Part shown: one piece after another, positions 6,937-59,729 of the stretch | How the letters are laid out: the number at the start of each line of letters is the position of its first letter | How positions within the stretch are numbered: position 1 is the first letter of the stretch | Assembly (NCBI GenBank): GCA_020073615.1 | Contig: JAIQEX010000003.1 | Coordinates: 62,001-126,000, forward strand | Direction of reading: 5' to 3' | DNA from: Terriglobia bacterium | GTDB taxonomy: Bacteria; Acidobacteriota; Terriglobia; Bryobacterales; Bryobacteraceae | Length of the DNA stretch: 64,000 bases | Translations under genes and position numbers: made by a program | Notes under the pieces: generated by a model | What the model was told of the DNA's origin: nothing | Database searches by the model: none | The model's input: the letters and a program-made list of their open reading frames with translations, nothing else

Positions 6937-8008
6937 TGCTGGCGGCGGTTTTCCGGCGCTCGGAAACGTAATACCGCATGGTGGTCTCGAGGGTTTCGCA
7001 GATGCCCCACACCGGCTCCCACCCGAGCAGGGTGCTCGCCTTGGCGATATCCGGGATGCGCCGGTCGGAATCGTCGTAGCCCTCGCCGTAAAACTGCTCG
7101 CCCGGCACGCTGATAATCTCCGGCAGCGGCGTCGCAGGGTCGCGGAACTTCGCGGCGTAGATCTCGCGCATGGTCTCGGCCATCTGGCGGATGGAGACCT
7201 CATTGTGGGGCGAGCCGATGTTGACGATCTGGCGGTCGCACACGCCGCCGCGGTTTTCGACGATCCGGTAGGTGCACTCGATGGCGTCGTCGATGTAGGT
7301 GTAGCAGCGCCGGTTCACGCCGCCGTTCACCAGTTTCATGGGGGTGCCGTTGAGCAGGGCATCCATGAAGAACGAAAACACGCGCGGGATGTCGTCCTCT
7401 TTTTGCGGCAGAAAGTCGATCTTCGGCCCGATGAAGTTGAACGGCCGGACGATGGTGTAATTGAAGCCATGCTCCAAACCGTAGGCGTGCAGCACCCGCT
7501 CCAGCAACTGTTTCGCACAGGAGTAGATCCAGCGGTGCTTGGCCACCGGCCCCAGGATGTACTCGCTGGTGTCTTCGGAAAAAGTGGCATGGATAGGGTC
7601 TTCGGGATCGGCGACCGCGGCGTTCTGCAGGCTGGCCGCGGTCCGGCCGTAGACTTCGCAGGTCGAAAACTGGATCAGCCGCTTGCCATGCCGCACGCAC
7701 GCCTCAGCGATCTTCAGGTTTTCGAGGAAGTTCAGGCGGAAAACCTCGAGCGGAATCCGCAAATACAGGCCGGGGTTGGCGTAGGCAATCAGGTCGATCA
7801 CGAGATCGGCGTCGCGCACCAGGCCGTCCAGGTCCCAGCCCGCGCTGCGGATGTCCTGCTGCAGAAAAGTCAGGTTGGCATGATCCAGGTCCTCCGCGAC
7901 TTTCTCGCTCTGGAGATCGACCGCGGTGACGATGTGTCCTTCCTTAAGCAAGCGGTGTGTGAGATGAGAGCCAATGAAACCGGCGGCCCCCAAGGCGAGA
8001 ATCTTCAT
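6929..8008 (-). CDS. NAD-dependent epimerase/dehydratase, ArnA dehydrogenase-domain-like
   Basis: A 359-residue short-chain dehydrogenase of the extended type. The Rossmann start is GAAGFIGSHL and the catalytic Tyr-Lys pair is in WIYSCAKQLLERV. It follows the decarboxylating UDP-glucuronate dehydrogenase half of ArnA closely in order: LIAYANPGLYLRIPLEVF, STCEVYG, RPFNFIGPKID, and NRRCYTYIDDAIECTYRI. The formyltransferase half of ArnA is absent. Probable substrate: a UDP-hexuronate or related nucleotide sugar. It heads a two-gene operon with the GT2 gene and is divergent from the large membrane protein. Confidence 0.85.
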   Translation of the reverse strand: MKILALGAAGFIGSHLTHRLLKEGHIVTAVDLQSEKVAEDLDHANLTFLQQDIRSAGWDLDGLVRDADLVIDLIAYANPGLYLRIPLEVFRLNFLENLKIAEACVRHGKRLIQFSTCEVYGRTAASLQNAAVADPEDPIHATFSEDTSEYILGPVAKHRWIYSCAKQLLERVLHAYGLEHGFNYTIVRPFNFIGPKIDFLPQKEDDIPRVFSFFMDALLNGTPMKLVNGGVNRRCYTYIDDAIECTYRIVENRGGVCDRQIVNIGSPHNEVSIRQMAETMREIYAAKFRDPATPLPEIISVPGEQFYGEGYDDSDRRIPDIAKASTLLGWEPVWGICETLETTMRYYVSERRKTAASNG

Positions 8009-22026: not shown

Positions 22027-22059
22027 TTAGCCCTGGGCTGGCTCCACGGTAGGAGTGGC

Positions 22060-25000
22060 TTATTGCTGGATCGGGATCACTACCGGACCGGGCGGCTTGG
22101 AGTTGATACTCGATGGCGACGTAACCCCGTTGACGGAAATCCAGATCGGGTACAAGCCCGCCGGCAGCGGCGGCACTTTGAAGTTGATCTGGAATTGCCC
22201 CACCGCCACCAGGGCTGCCGCATCGGCCGCGACCGTGACCGTGCCGATGGTCACCGTCACGCCGCCGACCGCCTGCGGCGTGGGCAACACTCCGGCGGGC
22301 ATCGGTACCAATGCGCTGGCGTAGAGCTGGATGATGTCCCCCGGCCGGGCATTGCGAAATGCGGGGCCGATAGCCGGATCGCCTACGAACTTGCCGTCGG
22401 GAAAGAACACCCCGCCGGCGTAATTCGTCCCGTTCACGATGATGGGTAAGATGCCGGGCGAGTTAGTCACGGCGGCGGCCGTCACGGTGTTACTCACTAC
22501 ACTGTTGGCGATCACCTGCACGGAAGCGGTTCCAGTCACTCCGACGGGCACCTGGAAGTTGATCTGTGTCGGACTGATGTAATAGACCGCCGCGGGGAGG
22601 TTGTTCACCGTCACGTGCGTTCCGCTCAGGTTGGTGGGCAGGCTGTTGCCGAGGCCGGTGAAATCGGATGCGTCCCAGTTGCGCGTGGTGCTCGCAAGGT
22701 TCGTGCCCTTCACCTGCGCCCAGGATCCCGGCACCAGCCCTCCTTCTATATACGTCATGCCATTGGCGAGACTGCCTTCATCGAGCGTGGGCACAGCGCT
22801 GGGTGCGATCTTGGCGACAAAGCCGTTCCCTTTCTGGCAGCACGCGCCATCGCTCGAGGTAGTCTGGAATGCGCCGGGGGTCGTGATCAGGTCCGGGCCG
22901 AACGTATTGCCTGCAACGTAGATGTCGCCGGCGGAGTCGACTGCCAGCCCGGCTGGATTCGCGGTATTTTTCCCGTTGGAACCGACGATCGTGGAGAACA
23001 ATAGCTTCGTACCCGAGGGGTCAAGCTCGGCGACGAGCACCTGCTGGTTCCCGCCGTTTCCGACCGGCTCAACGGGGTTGACCAATGGGAAACCCGTTCC
23101 GGTTTGCCCCATGATATAGATGTTCCCCTTCCCATCCAACTGGATGGGGCCGGTAAAGAACAGGGAATCGCTCCCACCGGGTTTGCCGCCTCCCACATAA
23201 GTGGACCACAGGATGGTCTTGCCGAGAGGATCTAGTTTGGTCACGTGGGCCGCCGCGCAAGTCCCCCCATTAGGCCCGCAGACGGTCTGATAAGCGCCGG
23301 GCGTCACCGGAAAATCCTTGGAATTGGTGTATCCGACGATATAGGCATTGCTTGCGCTATCGATGGCGATGCCGCTGGTGTAGTCGCCTGTATTTCCTGT
23401 TTGTCCGCCCAGGTAGGTGGCGTACGCCAGCGATGCCCCACTGGCGGAAGTGACCGGATTGAACTTTGCGACGAAGCCACGCCACGTCGTCATGATGGTC
23501 CCGCTGGGGCCCAGGGGAACACCGTCAGGCTGAATCACCCCGGCGGTCGTCGGCAGCCTGCCGGCCTGGGTATCGCCGATCAGATAAAAGTTGCCGTTGG
23601 CCTCCACCGCGATCCCGGTGGCGTACGTGCCGCCGTTGCCCTTATCGGCAGCCGCCCCAATTCCATTCAAGTCGCCGAACAGGCTGGAGTAGAGCAGTTT
23701 GTCGCCGGTGGGATCGAACACCGCGGCGAAGGCGTATTGCGGTGAGCGTCCGCCGGTCTTGTCTCCGCCGATCACCGCACCGCTGGTGGTGGGAAAACAA
23801 CCTTGGAACGTGTATTGCGTGGAGCAATACACCTGCTCGTTGCCTGCGATGTAGGCGCGGCCGGCGCTATCGACGGCAATGGCGGTCGCGTACTGGTAGG
23901 CGTATCCGCCCAGAAATGTGGAGTAGATAAGGCCCGTTCCCGTGGGATTCAGCTTGGTCACAAATGCGGACCTGTTCGCCTGGTTGCAACCGGGTGGCGC
24001 AGAGGATGCCCCTGTATTGCCAGGAGTTGGGGAGCAGACTATCTGGTACGCTCCAGCGGTGATCGGGAAATTGGTTGATTGTGTCATACCGGTCACGTAA
24101 ACGCTGCCACTGGAGTCCACTGCAATAGCATAACCTTGGTCAAAGCCGTTGCCGCCGAGATAGGTCGAATAGACCACCGAACTGCCGTCCGGACTGAATT
24201 TGGTTACAAAGGCTGTAGCCCATTCCCCGGGAGTGACGCCCGGCAACTTCGCCGGAGGCGCGCTTAGATTTGGTAAAGGGTTCTTCGTCGGGAAGTCTAG
24301 GGAGAGGGTGTTGCCGGTCACATACGCGCTGCCCGCGCTGTCCACCGCGATACCCTGCGACGTACTGAGCTTACTCCCACCGGGTCCCGTCGCAATCCCG
24401 ATGGCATCGGTGTCTTTTCCGCCCAGATAACTGGCATAGCTGAGCACCGGGTCGATGATCAGCGCCCGGGAATGGTCGTAGCTGCCCAGCCGGAAGCGCA
24501 CCTGGTTCCCGGCCACGGCGAACGCCCCTTCGACGCGGGTCTTCTTGTTTCCATCCATTTGGTACAGCACCGGCTTCTGGAAGGTGGCCGGGCCGTGGGG
24601 CGCACGCAGAGCCAAATTGCCCTGCGCGTCAACGCTGGCGCGGGCCCCGTCGATCCGCCACGCAATGCGGCTGGGGTCGGCCCCGGGGGCGACCACAAAG
24701 TCGTACTCCAACTGGCGCTGATTCCCGTAGAAAACCAGATCCACCCCTGGGTAGACCTGGGAGTACTGGACCTTGCCATAGGTCGGGATGCCGGAGCGCC
24801 AGTTCTTCGGGTCGTTGCCGATGAAGTAGCTCACCACGCCGGCCTGCCGGGCCAGTCCCACTGCGTTGACCTGGGGATTGGCCGCGATCAGGCTCATGCG
24901 CAGGGTGTCGACCGACGCGGCTTGGGGTGTTTGCCGCTCCAGGTTCAGGACGACATTGCCCGGGGTCAGGAAGAGCGCGTAGCCGGAACCGCGCGAAAGA

Positions 25001-25236
25001 TACTGAACCGTGGAGTCCAACTGCCCCTGATTCGGCTCGAAACTCAACGGTACGCTCATGAGCTTCGCTTCGCCGGCCTGCCGGGAGGCCGCTGGCGCCG
25101 CCTGCCCCTGGTTATCACGCGAGGCCGCGGAGGCGCGCGGCCAGCCCAGACTTAAGATGATCGAAATTATTGCGAGCACCGTTACTGCCCAAAGCGCACG
25201 TGCCCGAGGTGCAACCAAAGACCGGTCATTTGTCAT
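22060..25236 (-). CDS. SBBP-repeat beta-propeller protein with Solibacter C-terminal domain
   Basis: A 1058-residue exported protein. A signal anchor (LWAVTVLAIISIILSLGW) precedes a DUF-like N-terminal region (FEPNQGQLDSTVQYLSRGSG). Many SBBP repeats follow, each with a YSTYLGG strand and a VDSSGSVYVTGMTQSTNFP half, through about residue 800. The last 230 residues match the TIGR03437-type domain, with VNNLPAAVYYISPTQINFQV and GQFQINFKVPPLPAGLYP. The role is probably cell-surface binding or adhesion; no enzyme residues are visible. Start ATG at 25236 has GGAGAGGG upstream. The repeat units are protein-level and diverged, not DNA tandem copies. Confidence 0.9.
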   Translation of the reverse strand: MTNDRSLVAPRARALWAVTVLAIISIILSLGWPRASAASRDNQGQAAPAASRQAGEAKLMSVPLSFEPNQGQLDSTVQYLSRGSGYALFLTPGNVVLNLERQTPQAASVDTLRMSLIAANPQVNAVGLARQAGVVSYFIGNDPKNWRSGIPTYGKVQYSQVYPGVDLVFYGNQRQLEYDFVVAPGADPSRIAWRIDGARASVDAQGNLALRAPHGPATFQKPVLYQMDGNKKTRVEGAFAVAGNQVRFRLGSYDHSRALIIDPVLSYASYLGGKDTDAIGIATGPGGSKLSTSQGIAVDSAGSAYVTGNTLSLDFPTKNPLPNLSAPPAKLPGVTPGEWATAFVTKFSPDGSSVVYSTYLGGNGFDQGYAIAVDSSGSVYVTGMTQSTNFPITAGAYQIVCSPTPGNTGASSAPPGCNQANRSAFVTKLNPTGTGLIYSTFLGGYAYQYATAIAVDSAGRAYIAGNEQVYCSTQYTFQGCFPTTSGAVIGGDKTGGRSPQYAFAAVFDPTGDKLLYSSLFGDLNGIGAAADKGNGGTYATGIAVEANGNFYLIGDTQAGRLPTTAGVIQPDGVPLGPSGTIMTTWRGFVAKFNPVTSASGASLAYATYLGGQTGNTGDYTSGIAIDSASNAYIVGYTNSKDFPVTPGAYQTVCGPNGGTCAAAHVTKLDPLGKTILWSTYVGGGKPGGSDSLFFTGPIQLDGKGNIYIMGQTGTGFPLVNPVEPVGNGGNQQVLVAELDPSGTKLLFSTIVGSNGKNTANPAGLAVDSAGDIYVAGNTFGPDLITTPGAFQTTSSDGACCQKGNGFVAKIAPSAVPTLDEGSLANGMTYIEGGLVPGSWAQVKGTNLASTTRNWDASDFTGLGNSLPTNLSGTHVTVNNLPAAVYYISPTQINFQVPVGVTGTASVQVIANSVVSNTVTAAAVTNSPGILPIIVNGTNYAGGVFFPDGKFVGDPAIGPAFRNARPGDIIQLYASALVPMPAGVLPTPQAVGGVTVTIGTVTVAADAAALVAVGQFQINFKVPPLPAGLYPIWISVNGVTSPSSINSKPPGPVVIPIQQ

Positions 25237-25475
25237 AGTCGTTGTCCCTCTCCATCCTTCCGGAATGGCGCCGGGGTTCAGTGGCCAGGATCACCGTTTT
25301 GACTTCCTGGCCAATATCAAGCATAACTCCTACCGGATAATAGGAGCTGGTTTTCTTATCTCCTTTTCTCCCGAGCGGCTCCGGCCAGTCCTAGGCCCTG
25401 TGGACCTTGCCGTACCGGAGCTTCGCCGCCAGACAGCCTCCCGTCCCGGCTGAGGGCTGCCGAGGCTCGGGAAGC
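25237..25475. other. divergent intergenic region, no gene seen
   Basis: Between the SBBP gene start and the promoter of the sugar operon I see no coding frame of convincing composition and no tRNA or riboswitch fold. It looks AT-richer by eye than the coding DNA, as expected for a region holding two divergent promoters. A GC-rich imperfect hairpin (CCCGTCCCGGC / GCTCGGG) near 25440-25471 could be an operator, but this is weak. Confidence 0.4.
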
Positions 25476-55782: not shown

Positions 55783-56304
55783 TTACGATCGCCCGATTTG
55801 GTTTATTGGCAGCGCAGGCACGGCCAAATCGTGAGCCCAGTGCAGGAGGTGCCGGTCTTCCGTCACCAGAGTCGCCTTGCAGCGCGTTGCAATGAGGAGC
55901 AGGCCGGCATCTGTAGGGCCAAGCTCGATCATGACCCGGCGGTAACTATCGGCGCGGAGTTCGTCAAAGGAGCACGGATGCTCTTCCACTGGGAATTCAC
56001 CCAGTAGAGAAAACATGCTCTCCCAAACCTCGTCTTTGTGGTCAAGGAGCCATCCCTGGCGTTCGATTTTCAACGCTTCGGCGATAACGTGTTGCGTTGT
56101 GATTCGACGTCCCGCGCCGCGGAACCCGAACCAGCGTTCATCAAACACCCCCGGCGGAAGTTCGGGAGACTGTGCTCGCACCTTATTCAAGGCGCGCAAA
56201 CGCTGCGTACCGGGTACGCTCTTCGACCTGAAGTGGTTGTATGGGACCACAAGCAGCAACGGGTTGGTATCGAAGACAAGTTGCCGCGGAGGGCTGCCTG
56301 CCAT
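55783..56304 (-). CDS. PIN-domain protein
   Basis: A 173-residue putative RNase. The PIN fold is recognised by the first acidic site in LVFDTNPLLLVV, a middle acidic helix (HVIAEALKIERQGW), and the late acidic segment ELGPTDAGLLLIATRCKATL followed by VTEDRHLLHWA. Insertions between strands make it longer than VapC toxins (about 130 residues). It starts at the stop of the 232-residue gene (TGATG, one-base overlap), so the two are translationally coupled. It could be a toxin with an unusual partner, or part of a defence pair. Confidence 0.8.
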   Translation of the reverse strand: MAGSPPRQLVFDTNPLLLVVPYNHFRSKSVPGTQRLRALNKVRAQSPELPPGVFDERWFGFRGAGRRITTQHVIAEALKIERQGWLLDHKDEVWESMFSLLGEFPVEEHPCSFDELRADSYRRVMIELGPTDAGLLLIATRCKATLVTEDRHLLHWAHDLAVPALPINQIGRS

Positions 56305-57002
56305 CAGTAAGCGCTCGTGGTCTCTGCTATAAACGGCACATCCTTGGCCAGTGAGAGCTCGGATCGCTTCGCCTTGAACGCGCCGGTCAGCCTCTCAGTA
56401 GTCTTGAGCAATTGTCCGCCGCAATTCTCCGCTTCCAGCCGGTGAGCCGCCACTTCCGGCACCGCGAGCACCGGAACAAATCGACCGCGGAACTGGTTCC
56501 ACAGCCGCGCGGTCGTGTAGTAATCGGGCAAGTCCTGGATATTGTTTACCAGGTACTCGGCGAGAAATCCCCCGAGATCCTCCCTGGTCGGATATCCCCC
56601 GAAAAAACTGCTGAATTCGACGCCGAGCACCGCCGGTGTTTCGGCCTCGACCGCCTGAAACGCTTCCTGGAACAGGCGGCTCTTCGATATTGCCGCGTGC
56701 AGAGCGACGCACGTTTCCAGGAGCCGCTTTACGGCGCGGTCATGTTCGCCGACAAGACCTTCGATAGCCGGGAAGAACGAGAGAAACTGTTCGAGGTTAT
56801 CGCGCGCCGCAACGTGTTCCGCGATTGGCGCCATATACTCCAGGGTTTGACGATGAAAGCGAAACGTCCAGTCGTGGCGGACCGCAAAGCTTCGTTCTGT
56901 CTCCAGACCTCTCAGTACGGGTTGTAAAACCGTGTCGAACCACGCCCTGACAATGTTGGGCCCGTAAGGGGGCTTGCGGCGGCTCGGCTGGCTGACTTTC
57001 AT
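56304..57002 (-). CDS. 232-residue partner of the PIN gene, unknown function
   Basis: A mostly helical protein without recognised domain. The start YGPNIVRAWFDTVLQPVLRG is amphipathic, followed by HDWTFRFHRQTLEYMAPIAE, an acidic helix LEQFLSFFPAIEGLVGEHDR and a helical middle. FFGGYPTREDLGGFLAEYLV and YTTARLWNQFRGRFVPVLAV are well-composed segments. Size and lack of an obvious DNA-binding motif argue against a classical VapB antitoxin. The tight coupling to the PIN gene implies joint function. Base composition looks a little less GC-rich than neighbours, hinting at transfer. Confidence 0.7.
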   Translation of the reverse strand: MKVSQPSRRKPPYGPNIVRAWFDTVLQPVLRGLETERSFAVRHDWTFRFHRQTLEYMAPIAEHVAARDNLEQFLSFFPAIEGLVGEHDRAVKRLLETCVALHAAISKSRLFQEAFQAVEAETPAVLGVEFSSFFGGYPTREDLGGFLAEYLVNNIQDLPDYYTTARLWNQFRGRFVPVLAVPEVAAHRLEAENCGGQLLKTTERLTGAFKAKRSELSLAKDVPFIAETTSAY

Positions 57003-57041: not shown

Positions 57042-57740
57042 CTAGCGCACTGCCGGTTCCAGCATGGCGGCGCCCTGGATGCGGCCCTGGCCGGATTCCT
57101 GCAGGAAGACCACGAGGCGCTGGCGGGCGGCGTCCGGGGGCAACTCGATTTCGGCGCGGAAGCCGGCGCCGCGCTTGACCGCACCGATCTTGCGCATGCT
57201 TTCGACGACCGCCACATGATGCAGCAGGCGGCCCTTGTTTTCGCCGGCGGCGACCTGCGTCTCGGCGCTATCGCCGGCCAGCGCCAGAAAGACATCGGCG
57301 GAGACGGGCGCGCCTTCCACTGCGACGCGCAGGCCGGCGCTGGTGCGCGCCAGGCGCAGTGCGGCCTTCGGCCGTTGGTCGGCCCGGGAGATTTCGGCGG
57401 CCGCACGGGAGCCCTCGCTGCCGTTGAATTCGATGCCGCCATCGACCACCATTTCCGGGGTGTAGACGCTGTCCAGGTTGAAGCGGCGGCCGTAGACGGA
57501 CTGGCGTGCGGTAATCGCGGGCGACGAGAAGCGGTCCTTCCAGCCTTCGTGGTCCCAATAATCGACGTGCTCGCTGAGCACGATGGCGCGCGCATCCAGT
57601 TGCAGGAGCAGGCGGTCGGCGGGCGGGCAACTGGAACATCCCTCGGAGGTGAAGAGCTCGACCAGCACGGCCGCGCGGTCGCGGCCGCCAGCCACGGCCG
57701 GCAGCAAGGCGCACAAACCTGCCAATAGAATGCGAAACAT
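57042..57740 (-). CDS. DUF1223 family secreted thioredoxin-like protein
   Basis: A 232-residue exported protein with leader RILLAGLCALLPAVAGG. The DUF1223 signature is clear: VELFTSEGCSSCPPADRLL (a CxxC-like C-S-S-C), LSEHVDYWDHEGWKDRFSSP, and YGRRFNLDSVYTPEMVVDGG. The fold is thioredoxin-like and the role is probably redox, in the periplasm, but unproven. I chose the ATG at 57740, preceded by GGGAGGG at good spacing, over the TTG two codons upstream. Its upstream region is one copy of the 41-bp repeat that also lies beyond the TIR gene. Confidence 0.87.
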   Translation of the reverse strand: MFRILLAGLCALLPAVAGGRDRAAVLVELFTSEGCSSCPPADRLLLQLDARAIVLSEHVDYWDHEGWKDRFSSPAITARQSVYGRRFNLDSVYTPEMVVDGGIEFNGSEGSRAAAEISRADQRPKAALRLARTSAGLRVAVEGAPVSADVFLALAGDSAETQVAAGENKGRLLHHVAVVESMRKIGAVKRGAGFRAEIELPPDAARQRLVVFLQESGQGRIQGAAMLEPAVR

Positions 57741-57743
57741 CTT

Positions 57744-57784
57744 CAAGCCCTCCCGGTGCCTGTTACTACGATAGACGAATCGGG
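57744..57784. repeat. 41-bp direct repeat, left copy
   Basis: Aligns without gaps to 59584-59624, with 37 of 41 bases equal; both share CAAGCCCTCCCGGTGC at one end and CGATAGACGAATCGGG at the other. This copy contains the ribosome-binding site and probable leader of the DUF1223 gene on the minus strand. Confidence 0.85.
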
Positions 57785-57833
57785 CTTTCTAAGCCGGCCC
57801 GGTTCGTCTACACTCGTTTGGGTAGGGCCGGCG

Positions 57834-59480
57834 ATGAAGCGCGTGTTCATTTCGTACTGTCGCGAGGACGGGGACTTCGCGGACAACCTGCGGCACAAAC
57901 TGGAAGAGGCGGAGATCCCCACCTGGCAGGATACGGACCTCTACGGCGGACAGTTGTGGCGGGCGGAGATCGACCTCGCCATACGGGAGTCGCTGGCGGT
58001 GGTGGTGGTGATGTCGCCGGAGGCGGCGCAGTCCGGCTACGTGGCCTATGAGTGGGCGTTTGCCCTCGGCGTAGGGGTGAACGTGGTGCCGGTGCTGCTG
58101 AAGAGCGCGCCGGGGGACCTGCATCCGGCCTTGCAGAGCCGGCAGTGCCTGGATTTTTCGAGCCGGTCGGCGCGGCCGTGGGATCTGTTGTGCCGCGCGG
58201 TGCAGGGGGTGGGGCCACCGGCAGAGGCCACGATTCACATTCCGGAGGGCGCGCCGCCGGTGGTGGAACAGGCGGCGCGGGCCCTGGACAGCATGGATGA
58301 AGAGCAGCGGGAAGCGGCGCTCAAGACGCTGGCGACCATGAATCACCCCACGGTGACCGAAGTGCTGGCGGGGGCCTTGCATCATCCCATACAGGAAGTC
58401 CGGTTTCGGGCGGGCGGGATGCTGCTCGACCGGGGCGACAAGCGGTGCCTGCCGGCGGTGTTCGAATCCCTGCGTGCGAACTGGTCGGTGAGCGGTCTGG
58501 CCGAACTGGGGCGAGAGGCGGTGCCGGAGCTGATCGAAGCGCTGGGCGACGAGGACCGCTCCGTGCGGGCCGCCGCTGCCGGAGCGCTGGGGGCGATCGG
58601 CGATCGGGCGGCGATCCCGCACTTGCAGCGCCTGCTCGCCGATGAGAATGATTGGGTGCGCGCAGCCGCGCTGGACGCCCTCGGCGATTTCCACGATGCG
58701 GCCCTGCTGCCGGCGTTCCAGGAAGCGTTCCGCAACAACAACGCGCCGCGGGCGGCGCTGCGGGCGGCGTCAAAGATTCCGCAGGCCGGCGGCGAGAGCC
58801 TGCTGATCGAGGCGCTCCAGCATGCCGACCGAGACAACCGGCAACAGGCGGGGGAGTTGCTGGAACCCGTGGCTACCGCCGCTGCCGTGGAAGCGCTGCG
58901 CCGAGCCGTCAAAGACCCGGAGAGCAGCGTGCGCTCCCGCGCTCTTGCCACCCTGGCGCGCTTGGGCGGCGCCGCGCACCTGGCGCTCTTCCTGGAGGCG
59001 CTCGAGGATGAACGCGGTGACGTCCGGCGCGCGGCCTCCGAGGCGCTGGAAAAGATCGGAGGGCCCGCGGTGACGGCCGGGCTGGTGGAGATCGTGCGCA
59101 GTCCGGACAAGTTGTATCGCGAGGACGCCGTGCGGCTACTGGGAAAAGTCGGAGAAGAATGGGCGGTTCCGGCGCTCGCCGAAGCGCTCCAGGACGCGGA
59201 CACCGGCGAAGTGGCGGCGTGGTCGTTGGGCAAACTGGCCAGGCCGGGCATGCCGGCCGTAGAAGTCCTGGTAAGGTTGGCGACCGAAGGGAGCGGCCGC
59301 ATGCGCGACGCGGCCCGCCGCGCCCTCTTTGAGATCAAGGATCCTGCCACTATCGGGCCGTTGAGCAGGATGCTGGATGACGATAACCTTCGCGTGGGCG
59401 CCGAGACGGCCCTGCGGCTGATCGGCACACCGGAGGCGCAGCGCGCGCTGGCGGCGTGGCGGCGTAAGGTCCGCCAGTGA
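57834..59480 (+). CDS. TIR-domain protein with HEAT repeats
   Basis: A 548-residue two-part protein. The first 125 residues are a TIR domain: KRVFISYCREDGDFADNLRH, IPTWQDTDLYGGQLW, and AVVVVMSPEAAQSGYVAYEW, where E73 is in the place of the NADase catalytic glutamate. A helical linker follows, then about eleven PBS-lyase-type HEAT repeats (VRAAAAGALGAIGDRAAIPH, VRAAALDALGDFHDAALLPA, VRRAASEALEKIGGPAVTAG). ATG at 57834 starts the domain exactly; a longer in-frame extension would overlap the repeat. Such proteins may signal via NAD loss or scaffold assembly. Role in phage defence is plausible but unproven. Confidence 0.9.
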   Translation: MKRVFISYCREDGDFADNLRHKLEEAEIPTWQDTDLYGGQLWRAEIDLAIRESLAVVVVMSPEAAQSGYVAYEWAFALGVGVNVVPVLLKSAPGDLHPALQSRQCLDFSSRSARPWDLLCRAVQGVGPPAEATIHIPEGAPPVVEQAARALDSMDEEQREAALKTLATMNHPTVTEVLAGALHHPIQEVRFRAGGMLLDRGDKRCLPAVFESLRANWSVSGLAELGREAVPELIEALGDEDRSVRAAAAGALGAIGDRAAIPHLQRLLADENDWVRAAALDALGDFHDAALLPAFQEAFRNNNAPRAALRAASKIPQAGGESLLIEALQHADRDNRQQAGELLEPVATAAAVEALRRAVKDPESSVRSRALATLARLGGAAHLALFLEALEDERGDVRRAASEALEKIGGPAVTAGLVEIVRSPDKLYREDAVRLLGKVGEEWAVPALAEALQDADTGEVAAWSLGKLARPGMPAVEVLVRLATEGSGRMRDAARRALFEIKDPATIGPLSRMLDDDNLRVGAETALRLIGTPEAQRALAAWRRKVRQ

Positions 59481-59583
59481 GAACCTGACCAAGGGGATCA
59501 AATCGGCGATGCGATCCAAGGCTGGAACCCTTCAAGAATTCGCAGATGCTGCGGAGCCACCTCGACGGTATCCTTCCCTGGAC
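59481..59583. other. spacer downstream of the TIR-HEAT gene, no gene seen
   Basis: Between the TIR-HEAT stop and the right 41-bp repeat no convincing coding frame is visible. It probably belongs to the inserted cassette. Confidence 0.4.
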
Positions 59584-59624
59584 CAAGCCCTCCCGGTGCT
59601 ACTTACCACGATAGACGAATCGGG
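59584..59624. repeat. 41-bp direct repeat, right copy
   Basis: Partner of 57744-57784, offset 1840 bases. Unlike the left copy it is not followed by a DUF1223-like gene on the minus strand, so it looks like a duplicate of that gene's leader left after an insertion. Confidence 0.85.
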
Positions 59625-59729
59625 GGCGGGAGGGCGGGGGCGTCGTTTCATCGGGACATTTTGGCTCAAAAGGGAGTTTACACCTGCGGCGAAACCGGGT
59701 TCTGATATTCTAACTTTAAGAGGCCCGCC

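Follow-up and report, generated by a model that had tools for sequence, protein, structure and literature searches.

The window (the whole stretch of 64,000 nucleotides analysed) carries a gene for a 548-residue protein, here called P0001, in which an N-terminal TIR domain is followed by a long solenoid of HEAT repeats. The gene is real and accessory, and it was probably acquired horizontally. With a probability of about one half, its product is a sensor and effector in a single horizontally acquired gene, the HEAT solenoid controlling an NADase activity of the TIR domain. The features on which this reading rests are collected in Table 1.

Table 1. Positions, in the window, of the TIR-HEAT gene, its domains and the surrounding repeats
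Feature	Positions	Strand	Remarks
TIR-HEAT protein (P0001), 548 aa plus stop	57834..59480	+	open frame from 57834 (ATG) to stop at 59480
TIR_2 domain, aa 4-111	57843..58166	+	Pfam 3.8e-22; pLDDT of TIR-only model 91.5
E73 codon, putative catalytic glutamate	58050..58052	+	aligns with E of WTNYE in AbTIR
Linker and first helices, aa 126-200	58209..58433	+	common to core family (blastp)
HEAT-type alpha solenoid, aa 142-547	58257..59474	+	Pfam HEAT_2, AlphaFold2 model, structural matches
Left copy of 41-bp direct repeat	57744..57784	+	37/41 identical to right copy
Right copy of 41-bp direct repeat	59584..59624	+	37/41 identical to left copy
Inserted stretch between repeats, one gene	57785..59583	.	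absent beside the DUF1223 and rhomboid genes of G001
Imperfect dyad, 13/14 pairs	57772-57785 / 57797-57810	+	spans left junction, 23 bases before ATG

Architecture of the protein and its putative active site

A longer frame of the gene, starting at a GTG at 57756, is an alternative to the frame listed in Table 1; the ATG is favoured by the alignment of the family. The TIR-HEAT architecture, proposed in an earlier sequence-only reading, was confirmed by Pfam and by an AlphaFold2 model. The TIR_2 domain (PF13676) scores 79.5 bits against a curated cut-off of 28, and HEAT_2 matches in six stretches (8.3e-58; 193 bits against a cut-off of 27.7). The model of the full protein, calculated with 13 relatives, has a mean pLDDT of 89.1 and a pTM of 0.66. 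It consists of the TIR fold, a weak spot at residues 128-131 and a solenoid of 26 helices, which correspond to about 12-13 HEAT-type pairs, so that the original count of "eleven or so" repeats was close. Among the structural matches of the solenoid are designed HEAT proteins (alphaRep, Z 24.9, 5.5 Å for 274 aligned residues). The results of the structure search with the full model were filled by solenoids, and a family missing from them is not excluded.

The TIR domain contains the motif S67-G-Y69-V-A-Y-E73, and in the AlphaFold2 model E73 is situated within a helix formed by residues 68-79, in the alpha-C region. The expectation that this glutamate occupies the NADase position was borne out by a family profile of 20 TIR domains, which puts E73 on the glutamate of the WTNYE motif of AbTIR. 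We take the latter to be the catalytic E208 and the residue four positions before it to be W204; the equivalent residue of P0001, Y69, is aromatic as well. According to PMC12162218, the NADase site of Cat1 is formed by S7, H8, N9, N10, D33, S68 and E74 of one TIR domain and K121 and Y122 of another. By position, the spacing of S7, D33, S67 and E73 in P0001 matches that of S7, D33, S68 and E74 in this account of Cat1.

The TIR-only model has its best structural match in a Hydra Toll-related TIR domain (Z 19.2). Its Z score to the TIR domain of SARM1 is 18.5, with 120 residues aligned at 1.8 Å, and the scores for SPARTA TIR-APAZ, MyD88 and AbTir are 18.1, 18.0 and 15.4, respectively. The solved sequences that best match the family TIR profile include AbTIR, BtTIR, SARM1 and Cat1; the top match of the profile is the Hydra Toll-related TIR domain, the aligned stretch of which lacks the glutamate. 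According to the survey PMC7075850, more than 70% of TIR domains possess the glutamate, which is not a strict indicator of activity, and the glutamate alone is therefore weak evidence for catalysis. By reading, it is also present in other TIR domains of the same order. Most of the relatives were retrieved with patterns holding YEWAFALG, so that the constancy of the motif is partly by construction; three members retrieved without this pattern (L077, L078 and L080) still keep YEW.

Probable insertion site and genomic neighbourhood

With up to three mismatches allowed, the 22-base core of the direct repeat has two copies in the 6.96-Mb genome of the window (G000), which are exactly the pair flanking the gene. 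It has one copy in G001, a sister genome from the same genus (640 contigs, completeness 96%), situated beside the DUF1223 gene and without TIR-HEAT, and no copies in the other 24 genomes compared. Because the gene sits between repeats that are unique in its genome, and the single copy in G001 is not accompanied by TIR-HEAT, the simplest reading is that of a one-gene insert, about 1.8 kb in length, whose integration gave rise to a duplication of the target site. The two repeats differ at 4 of 41 positions, suggesting that the insertion is not very recent. The G+C content of the insert is 68.8%, compared with 65.7% for the window, and the GC3 of the gene is ordinary; composition thus gives no foreign signal.

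The DUF1223 gene of G001 is 84% identical over window positions 57048 to 57784, after which a different gene follows. The block of rhomboid, VWA, receiver and GH3 genes in G001 has a DNA identity of 88.7% with a sharp onset at window position 59701, and is preceded by a different gene. In G001 the DUF1223 and rhomboid genes are found on different contigs with other neighbours. As the right flank differs from G001, a further rearrangement must have taken place in one of the two genomes. The neighbour of DUF1223 in G001 (L088:1520-4748) has its counterpart at window 22058-25362, about 32 kb away and in the opposite orientation, which points to an inversion, one breakpoint of which would lie close to the insertion site.

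A classical transposon was considered and rejected, as no transposase-like gene was found between the repeats by reading. No inverted pair of at least 16 bp joining the two ends of the insert was found, shorter ones not being excluded, and a target duplication of 41 bp is longer than usual for transposons. A dyad of the quality of that at the left junction was encountered in 1 of 250 random windows (fold z -2.43); it is a possible operator or recombination site.

The genes on either side of the insert, DUF1223 and rhomboid, are of housekeeping type. Among the six window neighbours scanned with PADLOC there is no clear defence gene, two matches near 1e-3 being to a response regulator, and no defence island was seen among the genes scanned. 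Two adjoining genes at window 55786-57002, on the minus strand, have no Pfam or PADLOC match at 0.01 and a G+C content of 59%, below that of the surroundings. A protein of 173 residues encoded there was judged by reading (FDTN start) to resemble a PIN-type nuclease, and the two genes are perhaps a toxin-antitoxin pair.

Elsewhere, a gene for a phage major head protein (phrog_10, 4.5e-13 to 2.3e-15) lies about 270-390 bases 3' of the TIR-HEAT gene, on the same strand, in 3 of the 14 loci scanned (L033, L034 and L080; L026, L029 and L032 were left out). In addition, a portal gene is found 2.5 kb upstream of TIR-HEAT in L034 (5e-65) and a terminase gene 3.5 kb upstream in L080. The Anaerolineae phage head modules holding or adjoining the gene extend over L033:8976-10805, L034:1658-8202 and L080:1917-10295. 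The TIR-FHA genes of L036 and L037 are 2.6-2.9 kb from terminase genes. These five loci were scanned first, having been chosen for their phage-like neighbours, and L033 and L034, which are closely related, do not count as independent cases. The remaining 11 TIR-HEAT loci (L023, L024, L025, L027, L028, L030, L031, L035, L077, L078 and the window) served as a later control, in which no head or packaging gene was found among 20 neighbour proteins, one or two for each locus; a Nudix protein of L035 has a weak portal match (9e-5). A phage context is thus unsupported as a general rule. When 27 loci with the head protein, from 22 Anaerolineae genomes, were inspected with flanks of up to 1.5 kb, one had TIR-HEAT, and the gene is therefore an optional passenger there.

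In L023 a TIR-FHA gene and the TIR-HEAT gene are adjacent on one strand (L023:8235-10193). A gene for a small HEAT protein is situated just upstream of the TIR genes in L023 (7986-8219), in L077 (near 7025-7237, minus strand) and in L078 (near 7291-7503, minus strand). The protein has 78 residues in L023, where it is 55-59% identical to those of L077 and L078 and 43% identical to the C-terminal part of TIR-HEAT; it is a possible regulatory partner.

Distribution and evolution of the family

The family comprises 17 TIR-HEAT proteins including P0001, all 17 of which score above the Pfam cut-offs for both TIR_2 and HEAT_2. The window genome is taken, from its gene content, to belong to Acidobacteriota, and the 16 other proteins come from Chloroflexota, Pseudomonadota (two Nitrosomonas and one gammaproteobacterium), Verrucomicrobiota and Candidatus Krumholzibacteriota. 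A pattern scan of genome contigs gave 21 loci, 13 of them TIR-HEAT, and three more proteins came from the Anaerolineae class of G441. The lengths range from 236 to 578 residues, and the number of repeats therefore varies.

The possibility of a housekeeping gene, raised together with the original reading, was rejected on account of the rare spread in the order of the window genome, in the genus Nitrosomonas and in the Anaerolineae class: the gene is missing from G001, and no second TIR-HEAT was found in the order (257 genomes searched). A TIR match at 1e-8 is present in 27 of these 257 genomes (E 1.9e-97 for the window and 3.3e-15 for the best of the others), and no HEAT region was seen beside TIR in the 11 of the 26 other TIR-matching genomes that were opened (one locus each, 1.5-kb flanks). 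A search with the whole of P0001 at 1e-10 in 41 relatives gave one other match only, in the HEAT part. The window genome itself has no second full match; three others, of 1e-5 to 3e-4, are HEAT-only or TIR-only.

TIR matches are present in 10 of the 396 genomes sampled from the phylum. Twelve loci from the nine genomes other than that of the window were opened, and they were judged by eye to have other architectures. The motif pattern occurs in two of the 396 genomes, the second being a case, in another genome of the class, of a TIR fragment with YEWAFALG beside a transposase-like gene (L022:1392-1556, minus strand). Within Nitrosomonas, 3 of 81 genomes match the family; the match is of full length in two, the search centre counted, and is confined to the TIR part in the third. 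With six candidates scored in each genome, at least 9 of 298 genomes of the Anaerolineae class have a match at 1e-25. At least four of the 298 have TIR-HEAT, namely G441 (the search centre), G684, G753 and G800; G672 and G799 encode TIR proteins that lack HEAT, and in G531, G569 and G598 the match is confined to the HEAT part. A further genome of this class encodes a 316-residue protein with two TIR_2 stretches (L079:4701-5648, minus strand). In low-sensitivity scans, in which absence is weak evidence, P0001 had no match in plasmids at 1e-10 and no TIR-HEAT was confirmed in viral contigs; its TIR domain, in similar scans, matched two records among plasmids, both of which read as other architectures, and none in phages.

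The linker and first helices match nine TIR-HEAT proteins of four other phyla (blastp, 1.2e-4 to 3.3e-16) as well as L080 (4.6e-4), which argues for one old fusion in the core family. No blastp match of this region was found at 0.01 in L028, L031, L032, L033, L034 and L035, and these may be separate fusions. The same group of TIR domains is fused to FHA in four of four and to receiver domains in three of three such proteins scanned. In a tree of TIR domains P0001 groups with L029 of Krumholzibacteriota at 84/74 only; no donor can be named. The HEAT label requires 4 changes on this tree, compared with 7.6 in shuffles, a result compatible with one origin of the fusion as well as with several.

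The relatives are under purifying selection, as estimated from their sequences: dN/dS in four close pairs is 0.33, 0.09, 0.18 and 0.05. The part outside the TIR domain changes faster in two of the pairs (82% identity versus 95% for TIR in Nitrosomonas, and 89% versus 96% in L033/L034), and the two parts change equally in the other two.

Proposed mechanism, alternatives and known systems

At rest, the HEAT solenoid would keep the N-terminal TIR domains apart or closed. A trigger, most likely a protein of an invader, would bind to the solenoid, whereupon the TIR domains would assemble and hydrolyse NAD+; the resulting loss of NAD+ would stop growth and abort the infection. We infer the NAD cleavage, the autoinhibition, the nature of the trigger and the abortive character of the defence; the target would probably be viruses. 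By analogy with Cat1, whose NADase site is built from two stacked TIR domains (PMC12162218), the solenoid might exert its control through the assembly of the TIR domains. As the insert is self-contained, a single chain may well suffice, although host factors could take part.

A sensor-effector is favoured by the presence of both domains in every member, by the retention of S7, D33, S67 and E73, by the presence of AbTIR, BtTIR, SARM1 and Cat1 among the best profile matches, by the patchy spread, the unique repeats, the three phage-head loci and the low dN/dS, and by the precedent of DSR2. It is weakened by the commonness of the glutamate among TIR domains, by the retrieval of most relatives through the motif, by the top profile match without the glutamate, by the likeness to MyD88, by the lack of a clear defence gene among the six neighbours scanned, by the 11 of 14 loci in which the one or two neighbours scanned include no phage head gene, by the single TIR-HEAT among the 22 Anaerolineae genomes with the head protein and by the divergence of the repeats. 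The retained active-site positions, in members partly retrieved by motif, also bear on a rather improbable alternative, that of a non-enzymatic TIR adaptor in signalling of the Ser/Thr-kinase type, in which the two domains serve solely to build complexes with partners such as TIR-FHA. Fusions of the same TIR group to FHA and receiver domains, the adjacent genes of L023, and a 612-residue open reading frame just downstream in L031 and L032, which in L031 encodes a protein kinase, would all suit such an adaptor; the window gene, however, has no TIR-FHA or kinase-type partner beside it. Similarly, a switch like SARM1, in which the solenoid senses a metabolite or damage to the host rather than a phage and the TIR domain lowers NAD+, would account for the fold of the TIR domain and for the housekeeping type of the window neighbours, and in SARM1, too, a TIR NADase is joined to a solenoid of helical repeats. 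Nevertheless, we consider it unlikely, as the domain order is reversed and the rare patchy spread, the one-gene insertion and the three phage-head contexts better fit an accessory conflict gene.

The TIR domain might instead act as in Thoeris, by making a cyclic ADP-ribose product that is used by an effector from another place in the genome. In favour of this, Pfam ThsB_TIR matches several relatives (8e-5 to 8e-4), and the PADLOC ThsB models weakly match P0001 (0.002) and its relatives. No ThsA-like gene was found in the insert or the six neighbours scanned, however, and such a signal maker is quite improbable. Least credible is a decayed or idle passenger with no function in this host. The single copy, the absence of a relative from the order as searched and the divergence of the repeats would agree with it, whereas the open frame of 548 codons with the landmarks of the family and the purifying selection in close pairs of relatives do not.

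The sensor-effector reading can be extended to a broader proposal, which we consider possible but doubtful: that these proteins form an undescribed one-gene immune module of five phyla, in which direct recognition of invader proteins by a HEAT solenoid, its length differing between members, would release the activity of a TIR NADase. The module would be a bacterial counterpart of DSR2 and, in reversed order, of SARM1, and would be mobile as a cassette of one gene flanked by direct repeats, sometimes carried in clusters of phage head genes. The earlier description of such proteins as little studied holds for the open-access literature on TIR with HEAT or armadillo, where no TIR-HEAT protein is named in the titles or abstract openings of the matches listed. 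The phrase "TIR-HEAT" was not found in the open-access literature, which lacks most subscription journals, and the word "heat" is absent from the main text of the TIR survey PMC7075850. HEAT repeats and TIR domains are both among the parts of ternary conflict systems in the accessible portion of PMC7159879, which does not describe a TIR-HEAT protein. The parts are thus known, and their combination and its spread seem undescribed in the open-access literature. If the sensor-effector reading is true, the union of sensor and effector in one chain, together with the varying length of the solenoid and the existence of natural genomes that carry or lack the insert, would allow direct tests of the sensing step; HEAT solenoids would then be coupled to both SIR2 and TIR NADases, and the finding would bear on how the control of TIR NADases by repeat solenoids, as in SARM1, arose.

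SARM1 (ARM-SAM-TIR) is an animal protein. It shares with P0001 a TIR NADase fold joined to a helical-repeat solenoid, although the order is reversed, the repeats are ARM instead of HEAT, and P0001 has no SAM domain by Pfam. AbTIR and BtTIR are among the closest solved sequences by profile, and E73 falls on the glutamate of AbTIR; their chains (137-184 residues), however, have no HEAT region, and AbTIR has a tryptophan in the place of Y69. The TIR domain of P0001 matches SPARTA TIR-APAZ with Z scores of 14.9-18.1, but the sensors of SPARTA and of Cat1 (TIR-CARF) are Argonaute/APAZ or CARF, whereas the window protein has a HEAT solenoid. None of the SAVED, STING, APAZ and CARF domains of CBASS, Pycsar, SPARTA and Cat1 effectors was found in P0001 by Pfam at 0.01. 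ThsB of Thoeris, the models of which give weak matches to P0001 and its relatives, differs in that P0001 has the HEAT fusion, and no thsA partner adjoins TIR-HEAT: there is one gene between the repeats and no ThsA match in the six neighbours.

The nearest working model, by analogy and with no claim of membership by sequence, is defence-associated sirtuin 2 (DSR2, SIR2-HEAT). According to PMC11263360, a phage protein sets off this NADase with a HEAT domain, the HEAT and C-terminal regions contacting the phage tail tube protein. Both systems consist of one gene with an N-terminal NADase domain, predicted in the case of P0001, and a HEAT region towards the C terminus. In the same account, DSR2 has SIR2 where the window protein has TIR, and its 1005 residues include six HEAT repeats and other helical domains.
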